Shown here: positions 10,296-47,595 of the stretch, piece by piece | Numbering within the stretch: position 1 is the stretch's first letter | Layout of the letters: every line of letters begins with the position of its first letter | Assembly (NCBI GenBank): GCA_003945285.1 | Contig: AP019005.1 | Location: forward strand, 434,001-498,000 | Direction of reading: 5' to 3' | Length of the DNA: 64,000 nt | Source of the DNA: Hydrogenimonas sp. | GTDB lineage: Bacteria > Campylobacterota > Campylobacteria > Campylobacterales > Hydrogenimonadaceae | The notes under the pieces: model-generated | Told to the model about the DNA's origin: nothing | Database searches by the model: none | What the model saw: the letters and a program-made list of their open reading frames with translations, nothing else | Program-made: the position numbers and the translations under genes

Positions 10296-11247
10296 ATTGC
10301 TTATCTGTTTTTAGATCAAATGTTGCTTCAGATATAGCATAAAGCGGCCGATCTTTTGTTTCATTGAATATTTTTCCTATGTATAGTCCTAATATGCCGA
10401 GATTTGCAAATAAAAGACCTCCTATAAAATAAATGGAGACCATGACACTTGTCCATCCTGGAACAGGAATACTGTAGACGAAATATTTGATAATTAGCCA
10501 AAAAGCATATAAAATACTCAGAAAAGTAATTAAAAAACCAAACTCAATAGAAAGGCGTAGAGGCTTATTGGAGTGGGCAATAATCGTATCAACAGCTAAG
10601 GATACGAGTTTTCTAAAAGAGTATGAGCTTTGCCCATAGGCTCTTGGAGCATGCTCAATATCGATATTTATCCGTCGAAAGCCCAGCCATGTTACAAATG
10701 GTGCGTAACCTCTATTTTGTTCGCGCATTTTGCGAAAGTATCCTACAACATTTTGTGAAATAATACTGAAGTTTCCTGTGGTTTCATCATGTTCCATACC
10801 GCTTAAAAATTTTAAAGTCTTATTATATATTTTGGAAGTTAGTTTCTTTAAAAAAGTATCTTTTCTCTCTACTCGCCTGCCAAAAACTACATCATAACCC
10901 TCTTGCGCTTTGTTGTAGAGTTTGATTATCTCTTCGGGCTGATCTTGAAGATCGCAATCCATCACTACGACCCACTCTCCCTCGGCGTAGTCCAGTCCTG
11001 CTGTGATAGCTCGATGTTGTCCGAAGTTTCTTGAAAGCTTGATACCTTTCACCCGGGGATCTTTCGCGGATAACTGCAAAATGACATCCCACGCTTCATC
11101 GGGACTGTGATCGTTGACCATGATGATGTCGAAATTTTCCGTGATGGGTGTCAGGGTTTTTACCAACCGTTCATATAGTTCAGGCAAAGCTCTGGCGCAG
11201 CCGTAGACCGGTGTTACGACGGATATATATGGTTGTTTATTCGGCAT
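10282..11247 (-). CDS. Family 2 glycosyltransferase, GtrB/ArnC/DPM1-like
   Basis: 321 residues. An N-terminal GT-A domain carries VTPVYGC near the start and the metal-binding DCD at 97-99 (MDCDLQDQPEEI). Two membrane helices follow at about 228-295, the layout of polyprenyl-phosphate glycosyltransferases such as GtrB and ArnC. It probably loads the finished sugar onto undecaprenyl phosphate at the inner membrane. The adjacent UPF0104 gene, overlapping by 14 bases, could act on that product. It overlaps rmlB by 11 bases. Confidence 0.9.
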   Translation of the reverse strand: MPNKQPYISVVTPVYGCARALPELYERLVKTLTPITENFDIIMVNDHSPDEAWDVILQLSAKDPRVKGIKLSRNFGQHRAITAGLDYAEGEWVVVMDCDLQDQPEEIIKLYNKAQEGYDVVFGRRVERKDTFLKKLTSKIYNKTLKFLSGMEHDETTGNFSIISQNVVGYFRKMREQNRGYAPFVTWLGFRRINIDIEHAPRAYGQSSYSFRKLVSLAVDTIIAHSNKPLRLSIEFGFLITFLSILYAFWLIIKYFVYSIPVPGWTSVMVSIYFIGGLLFANLGILGLYIGKIFNETKDRPLYAISEATFDLKTDKQYENS

Positions 11248-12373
11248 TGTATCTCTCCAGGTACCATTCGACAGTTTTGACTATGCCGCTTTCGAAGTTT
11301 TCATCTGCCTTCCAGCCGAGCTCGTTTTCTATTTTTGTTGCATCTATGGCATAGCGGCGGTCGTGGCCGGGGCGGTCTTCTACAAATGTTATGAGGCTTT
11401 TATAGGTTTTGGGTTTCGGGTTTTGGGCGGGGAAACGGGTGTTCTTTTCTATCGGGTAGAGTTCATCCAGAATTTCACATATCTTGTTTGCGATGTAGAG
11501 GTTGTCCCGCTCATTGCGGCCGCCGATGTTGTAGGTTTCGCCCGCCGAGCCCCTGTGATAGGCCAGGTCTATCCCTTTGCAGTGGTCAAGCACGTAGAGC
11601 CAGTCACGTATGTTTCGGCCGTCTCCGTAGATGGGTATGGCTCTTCCTTTCAAGGCGTTTCTGATGATGGTAGGGATGAGCTTTTCGTCATGCTGCTTGG
11701 GCCCGTAGTTGTTAGAGCAGTTTGTAATTACGGTATTCATGCCGTAGGTGTGATGGTAGCTTCTGACTATCATGTCGCTCGAGGCCTTGGAGGCGGAGTA
11801 GGGTGAGTTGGGCGCATATGGGGTCTCTTCGGTAAAAAGCCCGGTCTCCCCCAGCGTACCGTATACTTCGTCCGTGCTGATGTGGTGGAATCTGGGGAGA
11901 GTTTGGTCGGTCGATAGTCGATGGCCGATGGCCGATAGTGATTTTTGTGAATATTTTTCTTTGTACCGAAAGGGTCCGCTCATCCAGTGCCTGTAGGCTA
12001 CGTCAAGCAGTGTAAATGTGCCGTTTACGTTGGTCTCGATGAAAATACCGGGGTTTTTTATGGAGTTGTCCACATGGCTTTCGGCAGCGAAGTGGATGAC
12101 ACCTTTTATGTCGTAGGTGTCGAAAATATGTTCGACCAGCTCCCGGTTACAGATATCTCCTTTTACGAAAGTATAGCGCGGATGGTCTTCGACCTCTTTG
12201 AGGTTTTCAAGGTTCCCGGCATAGGTCAGCAGATCGAGGTTCACCAGATGATACCCGGGATACTTTTCCAGAAAGTAGGGAATGAAGTTGCTGCCGATAA
12301 ATCCGGCACAACCGGTCACCAGAATGTGTACAGGGTGCGGCTGCCGGGATGCGGTATATGGTTTTTCAGGCAT
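11237..12373 (-). CDS. rmlB: dTDP-glucose 4,6-dehydratase, with two in-frame repeat insertions
   Basis: 378 residues, longer than the usual 330-360. It makes dTDP-4-keto-6-deoxy-glucose from dTDP-glucose. Motifs seen are GCAGFIG at 21-27, HFAAESHVDNS, HHISTDEVYG with the catalytic TDE, and YSASKASSD with the catalytic Tyr and Lys. Two insertions are unusual: about residues 137-160 (SQKSLSAIGHRLSTDQTLP), coded by CGATGGC-like heptads, and about 311-322 (around AQNPKPKT), coded by TTTTGGG-like heptads. Both lie in variable loops, so activity may be kept. The N-terminal extension (about 14 residues) overlaps the upstream relic. Confidence 0.95.
   Translation of the reverse strand: MPEKPYTASRQPHPVHILVTGCAGFIGSNFIPYFLEKYPGYHLVNLDLLTYAGNLENLKEVEDHPRYTFVKGDICNRELVEHIFDTYDIKGVIHFAAESHVDNSIKNPGIFIETNVNGTFTLLDVAYRHWMSGPFRYKEKYSQKSLSAIGHRLSTDQTLPRFHHISTDEVYGTLGETGLFTEETPYAPNSPYSASKASSDMIVRSYHHTYGMNTVITNCSNNYGPKQHDEKLIPTIIRNALKGRAIPIYGDGRNIRDWLYVLDHCKGIDLAYHRGSAGETYNIGGRNERDNLYIANKICEILDELYPIEKNTRFPAQNPKPKTYKSLITFVEDRPGHDRRYAIDATKIENELGWKADENFESGIVKTVEWYLERYNAE
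11403..11430. repeat. TTTTGGG-type heptad insertion inside rmlB
   Basis: The top strand reads GGTTTTGGGTTTCGGGTTTTGGGC. In the rmlB frame it codes QNPKPKT just before the conserved LITFVEDRPGHD block, where other RmlB proteins have only a short linker. The same heptads occur at 28,230-28,258, and in the opposite sense at 15,102-15,139. Confidence 0.6.
11904..11941. repeat. CGATGGC/CGATAGT heptad insertion inside rmlB
   Basis: The top strand reads CGGTCGATAGTCGATGGCC followed by GATGGCCGATAGTG, a heptad-like tandem array. It codes SAIGHRLS within an insertion that precedes the conserved RFHHISTDEVYG block. It keeps the frame. Confidence 0.55.
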
Positions 12374-14562: not shown

Positions 14563-14580
14563 ACGCGAAGCGTTTAGGGA

Positions 14581-14612
14581 GCGTGCAGCCGGCAGCGTGC
14601 AGTTTGCAGTAG
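14581..14612. repeat. GCAG-word repeat, left flank of the four-helix-bundle gene
   Basis: GCGTGCAGCCGGCAGCGTGC followed by AGTTTGCAGTAGG repeats the words GTGCAG, GGCAG and TTGCAG at seven- to eight-base intervals. The same words appear in reverse-complement sense at 15,006-15,039 beyond the gene. Confidence 0.5.
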
Positions 14613-14668
14613 GAAAGAGGAATTGAAGAGTTTACGGTTTGCAATATTTATGTTTCGGGGATCTGTTT

Positions 14669-15007
14669 ATGAAGTGTGAAAACCTGGATGTCTGGAAACG
14701 GGCTGCGGCGTTGAGTGCTGAAATTTATATTTATCTGGAAGAGTGTAGGAATTTCGGTTTTAAAGAGCAGTTGACCAGATCCGGTCTGTCTGTGCCCAGC
14801 AATATTGCCGAAGGAATGGAACGTATGTCGAACCAGGAAAAAAGAAGATTTTTGGATATCGCAAGAGCATCGCTGGCGGAAGCAAGAACACAGATTTATA
14901 TCGGGATGAAAATCAACTACATTACCAGGGAAAGAGGTAAAATATGGCTCGAGGAGTCAGAAAATATAGCTAGAATGCTTACAGGACTGATAAACAACAT
15001 AAAGTAA
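14669..15007 (+). CDS. Four-helix-bundle protein (S23/IVP, avd-like)
   Basis: 112 residues from the ATG at 14,669, which follows GGGGA by eight bases; an upstream ATG at 14,639 is less likely. The family signature is clear: NLDVWKRA at the start, LTRSGLSVPSNIAEG in the middle, then NQEKRRFLDIARASLAEARTQ and a final LTGLINNIK. This family was first found in intervening sequences of 23S rRNA genes and is related to the Avd protein of diversity-generating retroelements; its cellular role is unknown. Here it lies inside the cysD-cysN operon, framed by repeat words in opposite senses, as if inserted as a cassette. Confidence 0.85.
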   Translation: MKCENLDVWKRAAALSAEIYIYLEECRNFGFKEQLTRSGLSVPSNIAEGMERMSNQEKRRFLDIARASLAEARTQIYIGMKINYITRERGKIWLEESENIARMLTGLINNIK

Positions 15008-15039
15008 ACTGCATGCTGCATACTGCACGCTGCAAACTC
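15006..15039. repeat. GCAG-word repeat in reverse sense, right flank of the four-helix-bundle gene
   Basis: AACTGCATGCTGCATACTGC followed by ACGCTGCAAACT contains CTGCACGC and CTGCAAACT, reverse complements of GCGTGCAG and AGTTTGCAG at 14,595-14,609, though in a different order. Word repeats in opposite sense on either side set off the gene as a unit. Confidence 0.5.
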
Positions 15040-15083: not shown

Positions 15084-16619
15084 ATGACAAACAAAACAGA
15101 TAAACCCAAAACCCAAAACCCAACCTCCCAAAACCTCCTAGACTCCGATATCATCGGCTACCTGAAAGAGCATGAGAACAAAGAGATGCTTCGGTTTATA
15201 ACATGCGGCAGTGTCGATGACGGCAAGTCGACTCTTATCGGGCGGCTGCTTTATGACAGCAAGATGATATTCGAAGACCAGATCGCCGCCGCCAAAAACG
15301 AGACCAGGAAGTATGGTACCGTAGGGGATGCCGAGATAGATTTTGCGCTTTTGGTAGACGGGCTTCAGAGTGAGAGGGAGCAGGGCATAACTATAGATGT
15401 GGCTTACCGCTTCTTCTCTACCGACAAGCGAAAATATATCATCGCCGACACGCCGGGGCACGAGCAGTATACCCGCAATATGGTCACTGGGGGCAGTACG
15501 GCCGATCTTGCCGTTATTTTGATAGATGCCAGAAAGGGTGTTTTGACCCAGACGAGACGGCACTCGTTTCTTGTAGGTCTGTTGGGCATACGCAACATTG
15601 TGGTTGCGATCAACAAGATGGATCTTGTCGATTACAGTGAAGAGCGTTTCGGGGAGATTGCTTCGGACTATAGGCAGATGTATGAAAAGCTCAAATTCTC
15701 ACTGCCTTACAAGAGCTTTCACCAAAAGATCGACTTCATTCCCATCTCCGCTCTGAAGGGTGACAATGTGGTTGAAGCATCCGGGAATATGCCCTGGTAC
15801 GAGGGAGATGCCCTTCTGCCCTATCTGGACGGTGTGAAGATAGAGAGAAGCGACTTTCAGGCTTTTCGTTTTCCTGTGCAGTATGTGAACCGTCCGAATC
15901 TAGACTTTCGCGGTTTTGCCGGTACCATAGCTTCCGGCGGTGTGGCGGAGGGTGATCGTATTGTTGTTTACCCTTCGAAGAAGAGCTCTGCTGTTAAATC
16001 TATTGTTCCTCCGGTTAGTCCGGAGGTGTTAGCGGGCAGCGGTCAGAATGCAGTTAGCAGTGGGCAGAATGCAGTGGGCAGTGGGCAGTGTGTTGCCGGG
16101 GTTGAGGAGGCTTTTGCTCCTTTGGCGGTTACCTTGACTCTTAGTGACGAGATCGATATCTCCCGGGGTGATCTGATGGTCAGGGAGGGTGAGAAAGAGC
16201 CCTATTTCAGTGACAGTTTTGAAGCGATGCTTGTCTGGATGGATGAAGAGCCTCTTAAAAACAGGGAGTATATCGTCAAACTATACTCCAAGGAGGTCAA
16301 TGCGGTTGTAGGTGCCATCATGTTCAAGCGTGATGTCAATAGCTGGGAGAAGCTGGAGGCGAAGAGTCTGGAGTTGAACGACATAGCCCGTGTGAAGATC
16401 GATCTTAATGAAAAAGTGGCGTTCGATCTCTATGAAGAGAACAAGCGTACGGGAGCTTTTATATTGATCGACAAGCTTACAAACAATACCGTGGCCGCAG
16501 GTATGATTGCCGGTATCTCTACAAAACAGAAAAGAGAGAGAGTCTATACCGAATCCGAAAAGGCGCTGAACGCTTTCATCAGAGAGCACTTTCCCGAGTG
16601 GGAGTGTAAAGCCATATGA
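15084..16619 (+). CDS. cysN: Sulfate adenylyltransferase subunit 1 (GTPase), with repeat-coded additions
   Basis: 511 residues. The GTPase subunit of ATP sulfurylase drives APS formation by CysD. G1 is GSVDDGKST (42-50), G3 is DTPGHEQYTRNM and G4 is NKMD. Two parts are odd. The N-terminus (KPKTQNPTSQN) is coded by ACCCAAA heptads, the reverse complement of the TTTTGGG words seen elsewhere. Residues about 316-336 (GSGQNAVSSGQNAVGSGQ) are coded by GGCAGTG-type words in domain 2, where other CysN proteins go straight into the EEAFA block. Both keep the frame and spare the catalytic motifs. Confidence 0.95.
   Translation: MTNKTDKPKTQNPTSQNLLDSDIIGYLKEHENKEMLRFITCGSVDDGKSTLIGRLLYDSKMIFEDQIAAAKNETRKYGTVGDAEIDFALLVDGLQSEREQGITIDVAYRFFSTDKRKYIIADTPGHEQYTRNMVTGGSTADLAVILIDARKGVLTQTRRHSFLVGLLGIRNIVVAINKMDLVDYSEERFGEIASDYRQMYEKLKFSLPYKSFHQKIDFIPISALKGDNVVEASGNMPWYEGDALLPYLDGVKIERSDFQAFRFPVQYVNRPNLDFRGFAGTIASGGVAEGDRIVVYPSKKSSAVKSIVPPVSPEVLAGSGQNAVSSGQNAVGSGQCVAGVEEAFAPLAVTLTLSDEIDISRGDLMVREGEKEPYFSDSFEAMLVWMDEEPLKNREYIVKLYSKEVNAVVGAIMFKRDVNSWEKLEAKSLELNDIARVKIDLNEKVAFDLYEENKRTGAFILIDKLTNNTVAAGMIAGISTKQKRERVYTESEKALNAFIREHFPEWECKAI
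15102..15139. repeat. ACCCAAA heptads at the cysN N-terminus
   Basis: AACCCAAAACCCAAAACCCA followed by ACCTCCCAAAACCTCC lies within the first codons of cysN, coding PKTQNPTSQN. It matches the reverse complement of the TTTTGGG words in rmlB and after argC. Confidence 0.55.
16031..16090. repeat. GGCAGTG-type words inserted in cysN
   Basis: AGCGGGCAGC, AGTTAGCAGTGGGCAG and GCAGTGGGCAGTGGGCAG occur in a row within cysN, coding an Ala/Gly/Ser/Gln-rich stretch. The same words (GTGGGTAGTGGGCAGCGGGC) open the intergenic array at 28,156. The insertion is in frame. Confidence 0.6.
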
Positions 16620-18914: not shown

Positions 18915-18996
18915 GTATACAGTAGTTGCCAAACCTGTTGTGAAGCAGGGACGGAAAGCCATGGGTCTTTGGTTGCAAAGATCGCCAGGTTGCCTC
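18915..18996 (+). promoter_or_regulatory. Cyclic di-GMP-I (GEMM) riboswitch
   Basis: The sequence follows the GEMM-I consensus: GCCAAACC, hairpin P2 (CCTG...CAGG), the core GGGACGGAAAGCCATGGG (consensus GACGCAAAGCC), hairpin P3 (TCTTTG, loop GTTG, CAAAGA) and the closing CGCCAGGTTGCC. One core base differs (GACGG for GACGC). A palindrome TACTGTATACAGTA lies directly before it (18,911-18,924). Class I aptamers bind c-di-GMP and control membrane, adhesion and exported-protein genes. The next gene starts 240 bases downstream. Confidence 0.88.
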
Positions 18997-19236
18997 TTTT
19001 AAGAGTAATTGTTCTATGGTGAAATCTCCCATAGGCGCACCCTAAAGCCTCCTTCCCTCTTCTCAAACATTTTTGTCTAGCTGTTTTCTTTAAAGCATCG
19101 TGCAGGATTCATTAATGAGAATGAATATAGCTTGTAACGATAGTCAAAGTTATATTAAAATATAGGCTTTACCGGATTAGGTTCGCCTAATAATGAATAC
19201 CGCACCCACTATTGAATGACTTTAGGAGGTCATCCC
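18997..19236 (+). promoter_or_regulatory. Leader between the riboswitch and the DUF1800-type gene
   Basis: This 240-base leader holds no gene. Seen in it: hairpin CTATGG...CCATAG (19,014-19,034), the stretch CCTCCT (19,048-19,053), which exactly complements the Shine-Dalgarno AGGAGG at 19,224-19,229, and a perfect UUCG hairpin ATTAGG-TTCG-CCTAAT (19,176-19,191). There is no hairpin with a clean T-run. Control of translation through the CCTCCT pairing is therefore more likely than a terminator, but this is inference. Confidence 0.4.
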
Positions 19237-20874
19237 ATGCTCAGGCACATTATTTCGATTTTTGTCGCAACGACATTTACCCTCATCCTCTTGACAGGCT
19301 GCGGAGGGGCGGCTACAGATGCGGCTACGGGCGATGAAGTGTCATTCTCTTCCGATGAAGACTCCGCTCCCGTCGTAGCCGCATCTTTCTCTTTCGAGGC
19401 TATAGACGATGAGAGCTTCAACTCCTTGAGTGAAGAGGATAGACTCTACGTTGCCAGAAAACTCTACTCGACCATATATAGAGGGGTGGAGTATAAAACA
19501 CTTAAAGAGCAGGTAGAGAGCGGGAGATTCATAAACGATTTTTCAAAACGCCTTTATGCGATTGTAGAGCAGCCGGATCTGACGAAGATGGAGGCTTATA
19601 TACCGTTTGATCCATCTTTGGAAGATCATCGTGATGCTGCTGACTCGACCGAAAGATATGCGGGAAATATAAAACAGGAGATATTCAGCAGACTGCACTA
19701 TTTGGAAATGGGCCGTAAATATTTCAATGAGTGGATTGCATACGTACTTACCCAGACGATTCTCTTTTCCCCGGCAAGAGAGGTGGAGAGTGTTACACCT
19801 TTTCCGGAGTTTATACGCAACGTCTACTACAGACTGGTCAACAGACTGGATGAGGGCAAGAGTGTAAAAGAGATAGTATATGAGCATATGATCTCCAAAG
19901 AGAACTGGGGACGTTTCAGGAGTCCTGAAGACAACGGGCGTGAGATGTTGGAGATATGGCTTGGAAACTACAATGACGAGCCGGTCCCGGTGGTTGCCGA
20001 AGCATTGAAAAACTGGAGATTTGAGCGCTATTACGACCCTTCTGCCGGGTGGGAAGTCTACGATTTTTACCATGATGAGCCTGGTGTAGATCTTAACGAG
20101 TCGGTAGAGCTTTTCGGCTTTACCCTAAAAAACGGCTACGACTTTTTCAAAATGGTGACTGAGCATCCAGACTTCATGCCTACCGTTGTAGCCAGAATTG
20201 TAGACTACTTTTTTCCGACGATGAGTGAAAGTGAACGTGCTGAAATCGTCGGGGGAATATTGCAGAATAAGCCCGAGACTTTCCAGCAGATATTTGCACA
20301 GATTCTCTTTTCAAAGAAGTATCTGTTCGAGTCGGACAAGGTCAAGAGCGTAGAGGAAGTTTTCTACCCTATGGTACAGGCTTTACCATATCATATGACC
20401 AAATATGTCTGGGGCTCAACTTGGGCATCCAATATAAAAGGGCTTGGAGCCGCCATGAATTTTTCCAACCAAAAGTCGATGTGGAACAAGCTAGGCAGGG
20501 ATAACGACCTGCCTACGGATACACTCAGTATCAACTATTTTCACCAATATGTCAGAAGCGGGATACTTCTGGCGCAGTGTGATGACCCAACCAGCCCATA
20601 CCAGGAGGGGATCGTCTTTGGATGGCTCGATGATAGACTCGACTATACGACTATGGAGTCGTATGTAGACGGAATATTCCTGGAAGTTCTGGGGCGACAT
20701 GCAAAAGAGGGTGAGGTTAAGATGCTTGTAGATGTCGCAAAAGGTGCAGGTTGGGATGAGAAGTTCCAAGAGTGGTCTTGGCAGCGGTTCTACCTTTCCA
20801 AGCTGGTTAGAGACTATATAAGCAGACTTACCGAAGTGTATAGGTATAAGCGTATAGAAGGAGCTGCAGAATGA
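19237..20874 (+). CDS. Divergent DUF1800-type lipoprotein
   Basis: 545 residues from the ATG at 19,237, which has a perfect AGGAGGT six bases upstream. The signal peptide ends in the lipobox LLTGC, so it is a lipoprotein. A DUF1800-like pattern is visible: SPEDNGREMLEIWLGNYNDE then VVAEALKNWRF resembles the family's ENYARELMELFTLG..YTE block, and the later VVARIVDYFFPT and IFAQILFSKKYLF blocks resemble its FI.RKLW and RALFLSPEF blocks. DUF1800 genes usually pair with DUF1501 genes, as here (4-base overlap). The function is unknown; an envelope role under c-di-GMP control is inferred. Confidence 0.75.
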   Translation: MLRHIISIFVATTFTLILLTGCGGAATDAATGDEVSFSSDEDSAPVVAASFSFEAIDDESFNSLSEEDRLYVARKLYSTIYRGVEYKTLKEQVESGRFINDFSKRLYAIVEQPDLTKMEAYIPFDPSLEDHRDAADSTERYAGNIKQEIFSRLHYLEMGRKYFNEWIAYVLTQTILFSPAREVESVTPFPEFIRNVYYRLVNRLDEGKSVKEIVYEHMISKENWGRFRSPEDNGREMLEIWLGNYNDEPVPVVAEALKNWRFERYYDPSAGWEVYDFYHDEPGVDLNESVELFGFTLKNGYDFFKMVTEHPDFMPTVVARIVDYFFPTMSESERAEIVGGILQNKPETFQQIFAQILFSKKYLFESDKVKSVEEVFYPMVQALPYHMTKYVWGSTWASNIKGLGAAMNFSNQKSMWNKLGRDNDLPTDTLSINYFHQYVRSGILLAQCDDPTSPYQEGIVFGWLDDRLDYTTMESYVDGIFLEVLGRHAKEGEVKMLVDVAKGAGWDEKFQEWSWQRFYLSKLVRDYISRLTEVYRYKRIEGAAE

Positions 20875-26651: not shown

Positions 26652-27143
26652 ATGCAGAAAGAGCCGATGACCGAATACGGTTTCAAGAAACTGAGCGAAG
26701 AGCTGGAGTACCTGAAGTCGCAGGCGCGGCCGGCGGTCGCCAAAGAGATAGAAAAAGCACGTGAACTGGGCGATCTGAAGGAGAATGCGGAGTACCATGC
26801 CGCAAAAGAGAAGCAGGGGATGATGGAGGCCAGAATAGCCGAGTTGGAAGATATTCTCGGTCGTGCGCAGGTTGTAGACCCTTCCAAGCTTGAGCACAAG
26901 CGTGTCAGCTTCGGTTCCACGGTTACGCTGATCGATCTAGATACCGACGAAGAGGTTACATATACGATAGTCGGTGCAAGCGAAGCGAACCCGGACAAGG
27001 GGCTGATCTCCTACCACTCTCCGCTTTCGCGCCAGCTTATCGGCAAGGAGCCCGGGGACGAGGTGCGCATGAAGCTTCCCGGCGGCGAAAAAGAGTATGA
27101 GATAGAGCAGGTCTGCTACAAAGAGATCTGTTTCGGGGCTTGA
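26652..27143 (+). CDS. greA: Transcription elongation factor GreA
   Basis: 163 residues from ATG at 26,652, six bases after GGAG. An N-terminal coiled coil (about 8-75) contains ARELGDLKENAEYHAAKEKQ with the acidic tip residues that enter the RNA polymerase channel. The C-terminal FKBP-like domain shows FGSTVTLIDLDTDEE, SYHSPLSRQLIGK and GDEV. GreA rescues backtracked RNA polymerase by stimulating transcript cleavage. It lies between lpxB and argC in a compact run. Confidence 0.97.
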   Translation: MQKEPMTEYGFKKLSEELEYLKSQARPAVAKEIEKARELGDLKENAEYHAAKEKQGMMEARIAELEDILGRAQVVDPSKLEHKRVSFGSTVTLIDLDTDEEVTYTIVGASEANPDKGLISYHSPLSRQLIGKEPGDEVRMKLPGGEKEYEIEQVCYKEICFGA

Positions 27144-27145
27144 AG

Positions 27146-28153
27146 ATGACTCCCGTTGCCGTGATCGGTGCCAGCGGATATACCGGGCTGGAGCTCATAA
27201 AGATTCTTCTGCAGCATCCGGAATTCGAACTTGTCTACGTGGCTGCAAGCGAAGGCGGGCTCTCTACCGATGCGATGCATCCGGCACTGGCAAAGGTTTT
27301 TTCCGTTCCGGTGGAGAAAGCGGATGCCGCAGAAGTCGCGAAGAGGGCGGAGCTCGCTTTTCTCGCGCTGCCGCACAAAACCGCTATGGGATTCGCGTCC
27401 GAGCTTCTTGAGCGCGGGGTGAAGGTGGTCGATCTTTCGGCCGACTACCGCCTGAAGCAGGAGACCTACGAAGAGTACTACTGTCCGCACGAGGATGAGA
27501 AGAACCTTCCGGAATCGGTCTACGGCCTTCCGGAGTTTTACCGAGAAAAGATAAAGAGGAGCCGTCTTGTAGCCAACCCGGGGTGCTATCCGACCGCTTC
27601 GCTGCTGGGGCTTCTGCCTTTTATCCCCCACATCAAAGAGGGATCGCCTCTGTATATAGACGCAAAAAGCGGCGTCAGCGGCGCCGGCAAGAAGCTTTCG
27701 GCCTCTACGCACTATGTAAACATAAACGAGAATATATTCGCCTACAACCCGATCACTCACCGCCACGCTCCGGAGATAGCCGAAAAGATAGACGACCTCT
27801 TCGTTACGCAGGTGGATGTGAACTTCGTTCCCCACCTGATTCCGGTTACGAGGGGAATGCTCTGCAGCGTATATATGCAGGTCGAAAACAAGATAGACCC
27901 GGTTGAGGTTCTGAACGATATATATAAAGATGAGCCTTTTGTGCGTGTAAGAACCGAGCCGGTCGACATAAAGTCGGTGGCCGGCACAAACTTCTGCGAC
28001 ATATTCGCAGTAAGAAACGGAAACTCCCTCTTTATCTCCTCGGCCATTGACAATCTGTTGAGGGGTGCCAGTTCGCAGGCCGTGGTGAATGCGAATATAG
28101 TCTGCGGTTTCGATGAGGGGATGGGGATACCCAGATTTGCTTATGTACCTTAG
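27146..28153 (+). CDS. argC: N-acetyl-gamma-glutamyl-phosphate reductase
   Basis: 335 residues from ATG at 27,146, three bases past the greA stop; a TTG at 27,140 is also in frame. It reduces N-acetylglutamyl phosphate with NADPH in arginine synthesis. Motifs: GASGYTGLELIKIL at the N-terminus, the catalytic Cys in NPGCYPTAS and the HRHAPEI block. The length fits the family. A dense heptad array follows its stop. Confidence 0.96.
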   Translation: MTPVAVIGASGYTGLELIKILLQHPEFELVYVAASEGGLSTDAMHPALAKVFSVPVEKADAAEVAKRAELAFLALPHKTAMGFASELLERGVKVVDLSADYRLKQETYEEYYCPHEDEKNLPESVYGLPEFYREKIKRSRLVANPGCYPTASLLGLLPFIPHIKEGSPLYIDAKSGVSGAGKKLSASTHYVNINENIFAYNPITHRHAPEIAEKIDDLFVTQVDVNFVPHLIPVTRGMLCSVYMQVENKIDPVEVLNDIYKDEPFVRVRTEPVDIKSVAGTNFCDIFAVRNGNSLFISSAIDNLLRGASSQAVVNANIVCGFDEGMGIPRFAYVP

Positions 28154-28155
28154 AT

Positions 28156-28261
28156 ATAGTGGGTAGTGGGCAGCGGGCAGCTGGCAGTTGGCAGTAGGTT
28201 ATAGGTTGTAGGTTATAGGTTGTAGGTTGCAGGTTTTGGGTTTTGGGTTTTGGGTTTTTGT
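28156..28261. repeat. Intergenic heptad array with three word types
   Basis: Going right: GTGGGTAGTGGGCAGCGGGC and CTGGCAGTTGGCAGTA, then GGTTATAGGTTGTAGGTTAT repeated, then GGTTTTGGGTTTTGGGTTTT. Three tandem word types merge in about 106 bases between argC and the LpxH-like gene. The same word types are inserted in rmlB and cysN. Confidence 0.75.
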
Positions 28262-28272
28262 GAGGAGTTGTT

Positions 28273-29010
28273 TTGGGTTGTGAGGTTGTTTTGCGGGAGG
28301 GGGCTTGGTTTATTGCCGATTCTCACTATGCCCGTTACAATACCGCGCTTTATGACTTTCTTTCGAAACTTTCGCCTGATGATCTGCCGCCCCAGATCTT
28401 TCTGATGGGTGATATTTTCGATCTTCTTTTCGGGTATGCACGAAATTCGATTCAACCAAACAGAAAAATGGTCGATCTTTTACAACAGATTGCCAGGCAA
28501 TGCGAGGTGATCTATCTTGAGGGCAATCACGATTTCGGCCTTGAACCGCTCTTCGGCGGGGTGATCAGAGTCGTTCCGCGCTCCGGGCAGCCGCTTATGG
28601 CAAGGTTCGCGGAACATAGCGTAGCTCTCCATCACGGAGATACTCTCCAGGGGGTCGGCTACGAAATCTATACGGCTCTGATACGCAACACTCTGGTCGA
28701 CCGTCTGCTGAATATGCTCGACACTGCGACAGACGGTGCGGTTATAGGGTGGCTGGAGCGTTACAACCGGAAGAAGAGGCCCTGTTACAAGATAGATGAT
28801 TTTGAAAAGCTGATGCGAAAGCGTCTGGACATTTTAAAAGAGAGATACGACTTCGATATCTGGATCGAGGGTCACTTTCACCAGAATGTCCGGTTCGACT
28901 ATGAGCATTTGAGCTACTTCAATCTTCCCGCGTTTGCCTGTGCCAATACATACACTGTCATCCGCCTTGAAGGAGACTCCGTGGAGTTCGAGGAGAGGCG
29001 CATGACGTAA
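28273..29010 (+). CDS. lpxH: UDP-2,3-diacylglucosamine diphosphatase-like metallophosphatase
   Basis: 245 residues from TTG at 28,273, with GAGGAG five bases upstream. Calcineurin-like metal motifs are ADSHY (D-x-H), GDIFD, GNHDFG, HGD (HHGDTL) and GHFHQN. LpxH removes UMP from UDP-diacylglucosamine to give lipid X for LpxB, coded 1.6 kb upstream. The second motif reads GDIFDLLFG rather than the common GDIFEAWIG, so it is a divergent LpxH type; another membrane-lipid phosphatase is possible. The start region overlaps repeat-rich DNA, so the first dozen residues are uncertain. Confidence 0.8.
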   Translation: MGCEVVLREGAWFIADSHYARYNTALYDFLSKLSPDDLPPQIFLMGDIFDLLFGYARNSIQPNRKMVDLLQQIARQCEVIYLEGNHDFGLEPLFGGVIRVVPRSGQPLMARFAEHSVALHHGDTLQGVGYEIYTALIRNTLVDRLLNMLDTATDGAVIGWLERYNRKKRPCYKIDDFEKLMRKRLDILKERYDFDIWIEGHFHQNVRFDYEHLSYFNLPAFACANTYTVIRLEGDSVEFEERRMT

Positions 29011-46894: not shown

Positions 46895-47194
46895 TTACTT
46901 CAGACCGTGGATATACTCTGCGAGAGCCTGGATATCGGCATCGCTGAGAGATTTGACCTGAGTTTTCATCATCATACCCATACCGTGGACGTTTCTTTTA
47001 CCCTCTTTGTAGGCTTTGAGGTCCTCTACGAGAGTAGCTACATCCATACCGCCGATAACTGCAGATTTGCCGAGAGCTTTTTTCTCACCTTTTGCGCCGT
47101 GGCATCCTGCACACTTCTTGTAGAGTGCGGCTCCGTCAGCCATTACGAGTGAAGCCGCGCCTGCGAGCATCAGTGCGAGTGTAACTTTTTTCAT
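46895..47194 (-). CDS. Small class I cytochrome c, copy 1
   Basis: 99 residues: signal peptide (KKVTLALMLAGAASLVMA), a single haem site CAGCH in LYKKCAGCHGAKGEKK, and a later Met cluster (MGMMMK) for the sixth ligand. Small periplasmic monohaem cytochromes like this (c553 type) carry electrons between membrane complexes such as bc1 and terminal reductases or oxidases. The coding sequence is identical to the next copy, including the region before the start. Confidence 0.93.
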   Translation of the reverse strand: MKKVTLALMLAGAASLVMADGAALYKKCAGCHGAKGEKKALGKSAVIGGMDVATLVEDLKAYKEGKRNVHGMGMMMKTQVKSLSDADIQALAEYIHGLK

Positions 47195-47240
47195 TTTGTT
47201 CTCCTTCTTGATTTTAGATTGCTTTATACTTGAGGCTGAA

Positions 47241-47540
47241 TTACTTCAGACCGTGGATATACTCTGCGAGAGCCTGGATATCGGCATCGCTGAGAGATTT
47301 GACCTGAGTTTTCATCATCATACCCATACCGTGGACGTTTCTTTTACCCTCTTTGTAGGCTTTGAGGTCCTCTACGAGAGTAGCTACATCCATACCGCCG
47401 ATAACTGCAGATTTGCCGAGAGCTTTTTTCTCACCTTTTGCGCCGTGGCATCCTGCACACTTCTTGTAGAGTGCGGCTCCGTCAGCCATTACGAGTGAAG
47501 CCGCGCCTGCGAGCATCAGTGCGAGTGTAACTTTTTTCAT
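47241..47540 (-). CDS. Small class I cytochrome c, copy 2
   Basis: 99 residues, identical to copy 1 in protein and DNA. It is the upstream copy in the transcript and keeps its own ribosome site. No sequence divergence means either a very recent duplication or continuing gene conversion. Doubling the dose of the electron carrier is the simplest effect. Confidence 0.93.
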   Translation of the reverse strand: MKKVTLALMLAGAASLVMADGAALYKKCAGCHGAKGEKKALGKSAVIGGMDVATLVEDLKAYKEGKRNVHGMGMMMKTQVKSLSDADIQALAEYIHGLK

Positions 47541-47595
47541 TTTGTTCTCCTTTATAAAAAATTATAATTAGAAATTGTACCAGAGTGTCGCTGAA

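Follow-up and report, generated by a model that had tools for sequence, protein, structure and literature searches.

A graded heptad array in Hydrogenimonas and its likeness to the solo left arms of S23/IVS-class elements

Between two genes of Hydrogenimonas sp. there is a short G-rich array in which one seven-base word passes into another and then into a third. The question raised by this locus is what kind of sequence the array is and how its words came to differ. It was analyzed within a window of 64,000 nucleotides, which is the whole stretch of DNA studied here, and the features discussed are presented in Table 1; the gene names asd, cysD, cysN and rfbB are those which we take to apply to the window genes. 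We consider it probable that the array is a solo left arm of an S23/IVS-class element, either as a relic or as an array seeded by such an arm or its descendant, with words that have drifted in register.

Table 1. Heptad features of the window and the genes beside or around them.
Feature	Position	Strand	Remarks
Target array	28157..28258	+	Words GGGTAG/GGGCAG, AGGTTA/AGGTTG and GGGTTTT in the same register; probable solo left arm
asd-type semialdehyde dehydrogenase, upstream gene	27140..28153	+	Pfam PF22698/PF01118
Calcineurin-like phosphoesterase, downstream gene	28273..29010	+	PF00149
Left heptad arm of S23 element	14580..14622	+	GCAGYNT words
S23 gene between cysD and cysN	14669..15007	+	PF05635, E 2.2e-31
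Right heptad arm of S23 element	15009..15034	-	Word of left arm, inverted
AAACCCA array at cysN start	15102..15123	-	Matches right arm of same-site S23 element in G080 (same genus)
In-frame heptad insert, cysN loop	16036..16090	+	GCAGTGG type; absent from that loop in G080 and G128
GGTTTTG heptads	11405..11427	+	Inside minus-strand NDP-sugar dehydratase (rfbB-like) ORF 11237-12373
GTCGATA heptads	11910..11936	+	Inside ORF 11237-12373; word of S23 arms at G000:C1 1849 kb; short, could be chance

The array consists of 14 full 7-bp units in a single register, in the order TGGGTAG, TGGGCAG, CGGGCAG, CTGGCAG, TTGGCAG, TAGGTTA, TAGGTTG, TAGGTTA, TAGGTTG, TAGGTTG, CAGGTTT, TGGGTTT, TGGGTTT, TGGGTTT, with TAG before the first full unit, a single T after the last, and a constant position of the GG within each word. 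Its period-7 score was 57.5, far above chance expectation, since the score did not exceed 12.0 when the complete 64-kb window was dinucleotide-shuffled 60 times. Adjacent units differed by 1, 1, 1, 1, 4, 1, 1, 1, 0, 2, 2, 0 and 0 letters. This total of 15 changes compares with a mean of 33.4 when the order of the units was shuffled, and none of 20,000 shuffles gave so low a value. The words therefore change gradually, apart from a single abrupt step from TTGGCAG to TAGGTTA. The first-pass annotation, which had described heptad word types merging into one another with graded change between them, was correct on both points. The same phenomenon was observed in a very long solo array elsewhere in the genome (L003, G000:C1 1367651-1367900), whose words pass from TTTTTAG via TTTGCAG and CTGGTAG into TGGGTAG without a change of register. 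Stacked independent insertions are possible but not needed to produce the three words of the target, because two arrays of the genome keep one register through several words.

It had also been suggested that the TTTTGGG part could form a G-quadruplex, but the canonical pattern (four GGG runs with loops of 1-7) was absent from the target, where GGG runs occur only as three at 28161 and three at 28238. An element which acts through folding of its G-rich strand would be in keeping with the G-richness of one strand and the two-layer G motifs present in the target, and GGGNATC heptads of Xanthomonas and Nostoc form quadruplexes in vitro (PMC4692102). Against this reading stand the missing run of four GGG and the arms of the same class, described below, whose words are poor in G runs (for example AATTAAA and GCAGTTT), and we regard it as very improbable.

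A DNA search of the 2,193,435-bp genome (G000) with the target array returned 9 places, and a search by word pattern gave 57 overlapping matches, divided 18 to 39 between the two strands. Related words were therefore spread throughout the genome, and the array is not unique, uniqueness being the outcome which the first-pass annotation had said would tell against its view. Within the window, six further heptad stretches were found (Table 1). One of them is an in-frame insert in a loop of cysN; in G054 the insert in that loop is built of a different word, the one found in the S23 arms of G054 itself. The array at the start of cysN may be a remnant of an earlier element, judging from its match in G080. 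Elsewhere in the genome, AATTAAA heptads form an inverted pair about 100 bp apart with no S23 gene between them, a MITE-like hairpin (L285, G000:C1 732348-732481), and hairpins resembling it were seen in L248 (7514-7638) and L263 (848-924).

PF05635 is the S23 four-helix bundle, the protein of 23S rRNA 'intervening sequences' (IVSs). An S23 gene lies between inverted heptad arrays in the element at 14580-15034 of the window, and all 3 S23 genes of the genome (3/3) lie between such arrays, with the words GCAGYNT, GTCGATR and AATTAAA, respectively. That arrays of this kind serve as the inverted arms of small S23 elements was not visible to the first-pass annotation. The element class consists of a single S23/PF05635 gene flanked on either side by a tandem array, the two arrays being inverted relative to each other and built of words of 7 bp or, less often, 8 bp. 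In a census of the genus, 24 of 31 S23 loci had both arms, 5 had one and 2 had none.

The generality of this arrangement was assessed with a scan of species genomes for S23, from which the best 80 of 583 confirmed loci were used. These 80 span Bacteroidota, Nitrospirae, SAR324, Clostridia, Planctomycetes, candidate phyla and others. When the 200 bp beside each S23 match were compared with control stretches 700 bp away, period 7 exceeded the threshold in 25/80 upstream and 29/80 downstream flanks versus 2/78 and 2/77 controls, period 8 in 19/80 and 19/80 flanks versus none of the controls on either side, and period 14 (twice 7) in 19 and 18 flanks versus 2 and 2 controls; each remaining period within 4-15 was found in at most 3 flanks. 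With a laxer threshold, the same best 80 of 583 loci had the same period on both sides in 42 cases, differing periods in 5, an array on one side only in 26 and none in 7. A larger set was assembled from the S23 loci fetched, comprising 162 distinct stretches with at least 150 bp on either side, and here arrays were present on both sides in 105, on one side in 46 and on neither in 11. Periods were equal in 101 of the 105 two-armed loci (period 7 in 79, period 8 in 19, period 6 in 2 and period 9 in 1) and disagreed in 4. Period-8 arms form a subset of S23 loci, mainly in Bacteroidota (L117, L142, L155 and others), and the period follows the S23 lineage.

Within an element, the right array matches the left array as its reverse complement, a match not shared with the arrays of other loci. 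Compared in inverted orientation, the right and left arms of one element gave a mean local score of 20.1, versus 4.6 in direct orientation and 6.5 against other loci; the summed inverted score was 1584 for period 7 (n=79) versus no more than 652 in 5000 permutations, and 364 for period 8 (n=19) versus no more than 252. Reading toward the ORF, G exceeded C in 190/210 arms. S23 elements are thus found in many phyla, with the same word inverted in both arms and different words in different elements. Two of them sit among CRISPR genes, between cas6 and cas4 in Anabaena sp. 90 (L224) and between cas10 and cmr3 in Picosynechococcus PCC 7003 (L306). A phage origin of S23 elements was considered and set aside, as a single query had no S23 match in 50,697 phage records.

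Plasmids provided pairs of filled and empty sites. An S23 match to the query used was found in 37 of 72,556 plasmid records, mostly cyanobacterial. The ORF with its arms is present in Trichormus variabilis and Scytonema plasmids, whereas Nostoc linckia and N. carneum have an undisturbed gap with flanks about 97% identical to those of the filled sites, and the sequence GTAAT, which occurs once in the empty site, flanks the insert on either side. The same pattern, with TTCTA, was seen when pNsp_a of Nostoc ATCC 53789 was compared with pNsp_c and a C057 plasmid. Compared with three relatives, Aulosira has an insertion at which about 10 bp of the target are missing, and the cas10-cmr3 gap that is filled in PCC 7003 is empty in PCC 7002. 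A Nostoc N6 plasmid has an S23 gene that is split by a further insertion, a 182-bp element (L304 1551-1732) with inverted heptad arms and no S23, accompanied by a target duplication of 0-1 bp. A fixed target duplication had looked promising from GTAAT and TTCTA (5 bp twice) and was rejected after 0-1 bp was found once and a loss of about 10 bp once. At least on cyanobacterial plasmids, the ORF and its arms were inserted together.

Partial forms were also found. At the Trichormus site, plasmid pC052_E of Nostoc C052 holds only a left array and an S23 stump (L295); this is a decayed copy, a solo array in the making. At a TraM-gene site, two plasmids carry an S23 element and a third carries an S23-less hairpin of similar word. 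There are therefore hairpins that lack S23 as well as a one-armed relic, with the same words. The filled and empty sites, together with the insert in the cysN loop, provide evidence for the word-inserting process that the first-pass annotation had supposed. That annotation had cast the target as the source or a reporter of this process; heptad arrays do enter genes and intergenic gaps, but nothing marks the target as a source, and it fits better as a relic or product. Its interpretation as a whole was supported in part.

The placement of the elements relative to transcription was strongly biased, as was found on checking the strand bias that the annotation had singled out for study. In the 105 two-armed S23 loci the upstream gene was co-directional in 73, opposite in 2 and undetermined in 30, and the downstream gene was co-directional in 72, opposite in 2 and undetermined in 31; both neighbors were co-directional in 61 and opposite in 1. 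The distance from the upstream stop codon to the first base of the left array had a median of -3 bp (n=69; quartiles -8 and 5). Half of the tested solo arrays were placed as left arms are, with the stop of a long open frame on the G-rich strand no more than 25 bp from the array start (15/30, versus 3/30 for the mirror case on the other strand, in a count based on open frames rather than proven genes), and the other 15/30 break this rule. Such a bias may come from targeting or from the loss of badly placed copies.

The target is placed in the same way. Its flanking genes both lie on the plus strand, its 7-bp tandem units are G-rich on the sense strand, it starts 3 bp behind the stop codon of the co-directional upstream gene, and it ends shortly before the phosphoesterase gene. 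The S23 arms at 14580 (L009) in the same genome share its GCAG word, and S23 arms in G080, of the same genus, share its GGGTTTT word; AGGTTGTA was absent from the S23 arms of the genus census. No inverted partner was found before the next gene, the array being single and direct, and there is no S23/PF05635 ORF at the target, the only 3 PF05635 genes of the genome being located elsewhere. As it is without an S23 ORF, the target was filed as a solo arm at most and not as a complete element. An Rfam search of the window returned no RNA family at the array. The sole match was a c-di-GMP-I-GGC riboswitch at 18919-18998 (+), just over the gathering score and upstream of ORF 19216-20874.

Location at gene junctions in sense orientation would also suit a regulatory repeat used by a protein or the ribosome, either for control of phosphoesterase translation or as an all-frame stop between coupled genes. 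Left arms contained all-frame stop codons more often than shuffled words did (57/101 versus a column-shuffled mean of 40.4 and maximum of 54), and a translational role was proposed by MacGregor for TAACTGA arrays, according to PMC4679880. We nevertheless hold this explanation to be improbable, since at the target gap the word, and even the presence of an array, varies among species of the genus, which argues against a conserved sequence-specific role. Three-frame stops received modest support as the reason for periods 7 and 8: these may be common, and 6 and 9 rare, because a period not divisible by three spreads stops over all frames.

The relatives of the target site were as follows. The phosphoesterase gene was found in 16 of 18 genomes of the genus, G000 included. 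In the corresponding gap, arrays built of GGGATTT and TTTTTAG words occur in G128 and G080, and G161, G105, G054 and G023 have other words or short stretches; no array was found there in G003, G194, G067 or G093. Neither an S23 gene nor an inverted partner was found at the gap in G000 or in those relatives whose phosphoesterase gene was found, and for this reason we infer, rather than observe, that the target derives from an element.

These observations also suit a plain heptanucleotide simple-sequence repeat, produced by on-site replication slippage in an intergenic gap and then altered by further slippage and point mutation. The target, with its tandem 7-bp units in an intergenic position, has the form of such a repeat, its units change stepwise, other species have arrays of other words in the gap where no S23 gene is found, and some S23-free genomes have arrays. 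Heptameric repeats are, moreover, common in bacteria according to passages of PMC4692102. The likeness to S23 arms would then reflect a shared repeat chemistry, the S23 elements using what slippage offers. Slippage alone leaves unexplained the restriction to periods 7 and 8, the place and polarity of the arrays, their concentration in S23 genomes and the words shared with arms of the same genome, and we judge this explanation unlikely.

The last two points rest on comparisons across genomes. In 20-kb stretches taken at preset positions from five S23-free and five S23-bearing genomes, there were 0 heptad arrays in 400 kb of the former versus 22 in 400 kb of the latter, kinship being ignored; S23 arms accounted for 4 of these 22, and other periods did not separate the two sets of five genomes likewise. 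Among 199 genomes of the order, a period-7 GG-ladder was found in 31/63 with S23 versus 21/136 without (p 1.4e-6, kinship ignored). Eight genomes were dropped from a further ladder test as having, or being suspected by family of having, G-homopolymer ends: G-homopolymer matches were seen in G013, G014, G061 and G145, and G032, G047, G074 and G112 were dropped by family and hit pattern. The S23-free genomes with a ladder then numbered 14/128, G023 of the same genus among them. A period-8 ladder was tried as a neutral control and rejected as not neutral, since S23 arms of period 8 exist; it was found in 11/63 genomes with S23 versus 13/136 without when all genomes were counted (p 0.16), and in 11/63 versus 5/128 after the eight were dropped (p 0.004). 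In 24/33 cases a solo array resembled the S23 arms of its own genome more closely than it did, on average, those of other genomes (p 8e-5), and this held in 15/22 when G000, whose set was mostly found using the target as query, was left out; 9/33 were not more like the arms of their own genome.

The arms were also compared with the kinship of the S23 proteins. Counted as alike at a score of at least 15, arms at unrelated sites were alike in 2-6% of pairs with distant S23 proteins versus 22% (n=74) and 50% (n=6) in the two closest S23 classes, and the nearest S23 relative at an unrelated site had the same period in 85/98 cases (shuffled mean 67, maximum 82 of 5000). At related sites, similar S23 genes sometimes have wholly different arms. 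The cysD-cysN site, for instance, holds S23 with different words in G000, G080, G128 and G054, a solo array in G023 and nothing in G150. The arms thus travel with the ORF, yet the words turn over, both arms together.

Under the favored reading, in which the target derives from an S23 element, its three words would have arisen by slippage in steps of 7 bp, by point change and by conversion, in register, with arrays elsewhere in the genome. In a transcript, paired arms may form a hairpin around the S23 ORF, by analogy with 23S rRNA IVSs, and arms would be kept as long as pairing and period persist, whatever their sequence.

In one genome, G085, three S23 copies are located within 23S rRNA genes, and inverted heptad arms flank the one whose surroundings were read (L197), so that a true 23S rRNA IVS carries arms of this kind as well. 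In the IVS of Coxiella burnetii, tandem heptamers precede the S23p ORF and vary in number between strains, the IVS RNA is excised by RNase III, and the IVS is called a 'selfish genetic element' and S23p a hypothetical protein, as stated in passages of PMC4990558. These IVSs thus share with the present elements an S23/PF05635 ORF, pairing inverted flanks and, in the Coxiella passages of the same source, heptamers before the ORF (PMC4990558). The elements described here differ in their position between genes for proteins, where they stand at stop codons in sense orientation, and in having words specific to each element, and the target differs further in having no S23 ORF.

Several other systems are comparable. 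MITE and REP sequences are small, have inverted ends and move as non-autonomous copies, in which they resemble forms such as the 182-bp Nostoc N6 insert; unlike theirs, the ends of S23 elements appear to be set by period and pairing, with no shared terminal sequence and no fixed target duplication. Avd of diversity-generating retroelements is also an S23-like protein. Among described heptameric repeats, the GGGNATC repeats of Xanthomonas and Nostoc have 7-bp units which lie mostly outside genes, on the sense strand behind stop codons, and form 70 and 75 convergent inverted pairs in two Xanthomonas genomes; they differ in having one dominant word per genome, compared with many words here, and S23 has 0 occurrences in that paper (PMC4692102). 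TAACTGA repeats of Beggiatoaceae, Cyanobacteria and Bacteroidetes are likewise 7-bp, intergenic and present in distant lineages with no evident mechanism, but consist of a single word located upstream of start codons and read as translational signals, and S23 again has 0 occurrences (PMC4679880). Our search, which covered literature other than bioRxiv deposits and most subscription papers, found none linking S23/PF05635 genes outside rRNA with heptad arrays.

A broader possibility, which we raise tentatively, is that these elements represent an undescribed kind of mobile element with no known recombinase. Its ends would be recognized by their 7/8-bp period and complementarity, and it would insert into genomes in sense orientation at the stop codons that end transcribed genes, perhaps through an RNA step in which S23 handles the nucleic acid. 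The heptad repeats of many bacteria, the target included, would then be footprints of such elements, and the rRNA IVS their best-known member. Two old puzzles meet here, the role of the widespread S23/IVS protein and the origin of bacterial heptameric repeats. If the arrays are arms and relics of S23 elements, both puzzles become open to testing: plasmids exist that are nearly identical but differ in having the element, and the strand and stop-codon preferences would give sharp predictions. Arrays that enter genes in frame, as in cysN, would also supply new protein loops.

Apart from its heptad features, the window contains a tandem duplication at 46895-47552 (period 346, 1.9 copies, 100% matches), within which lie two minus-strand ORFs of 99 aa (46895-47194 and 47241-47540).
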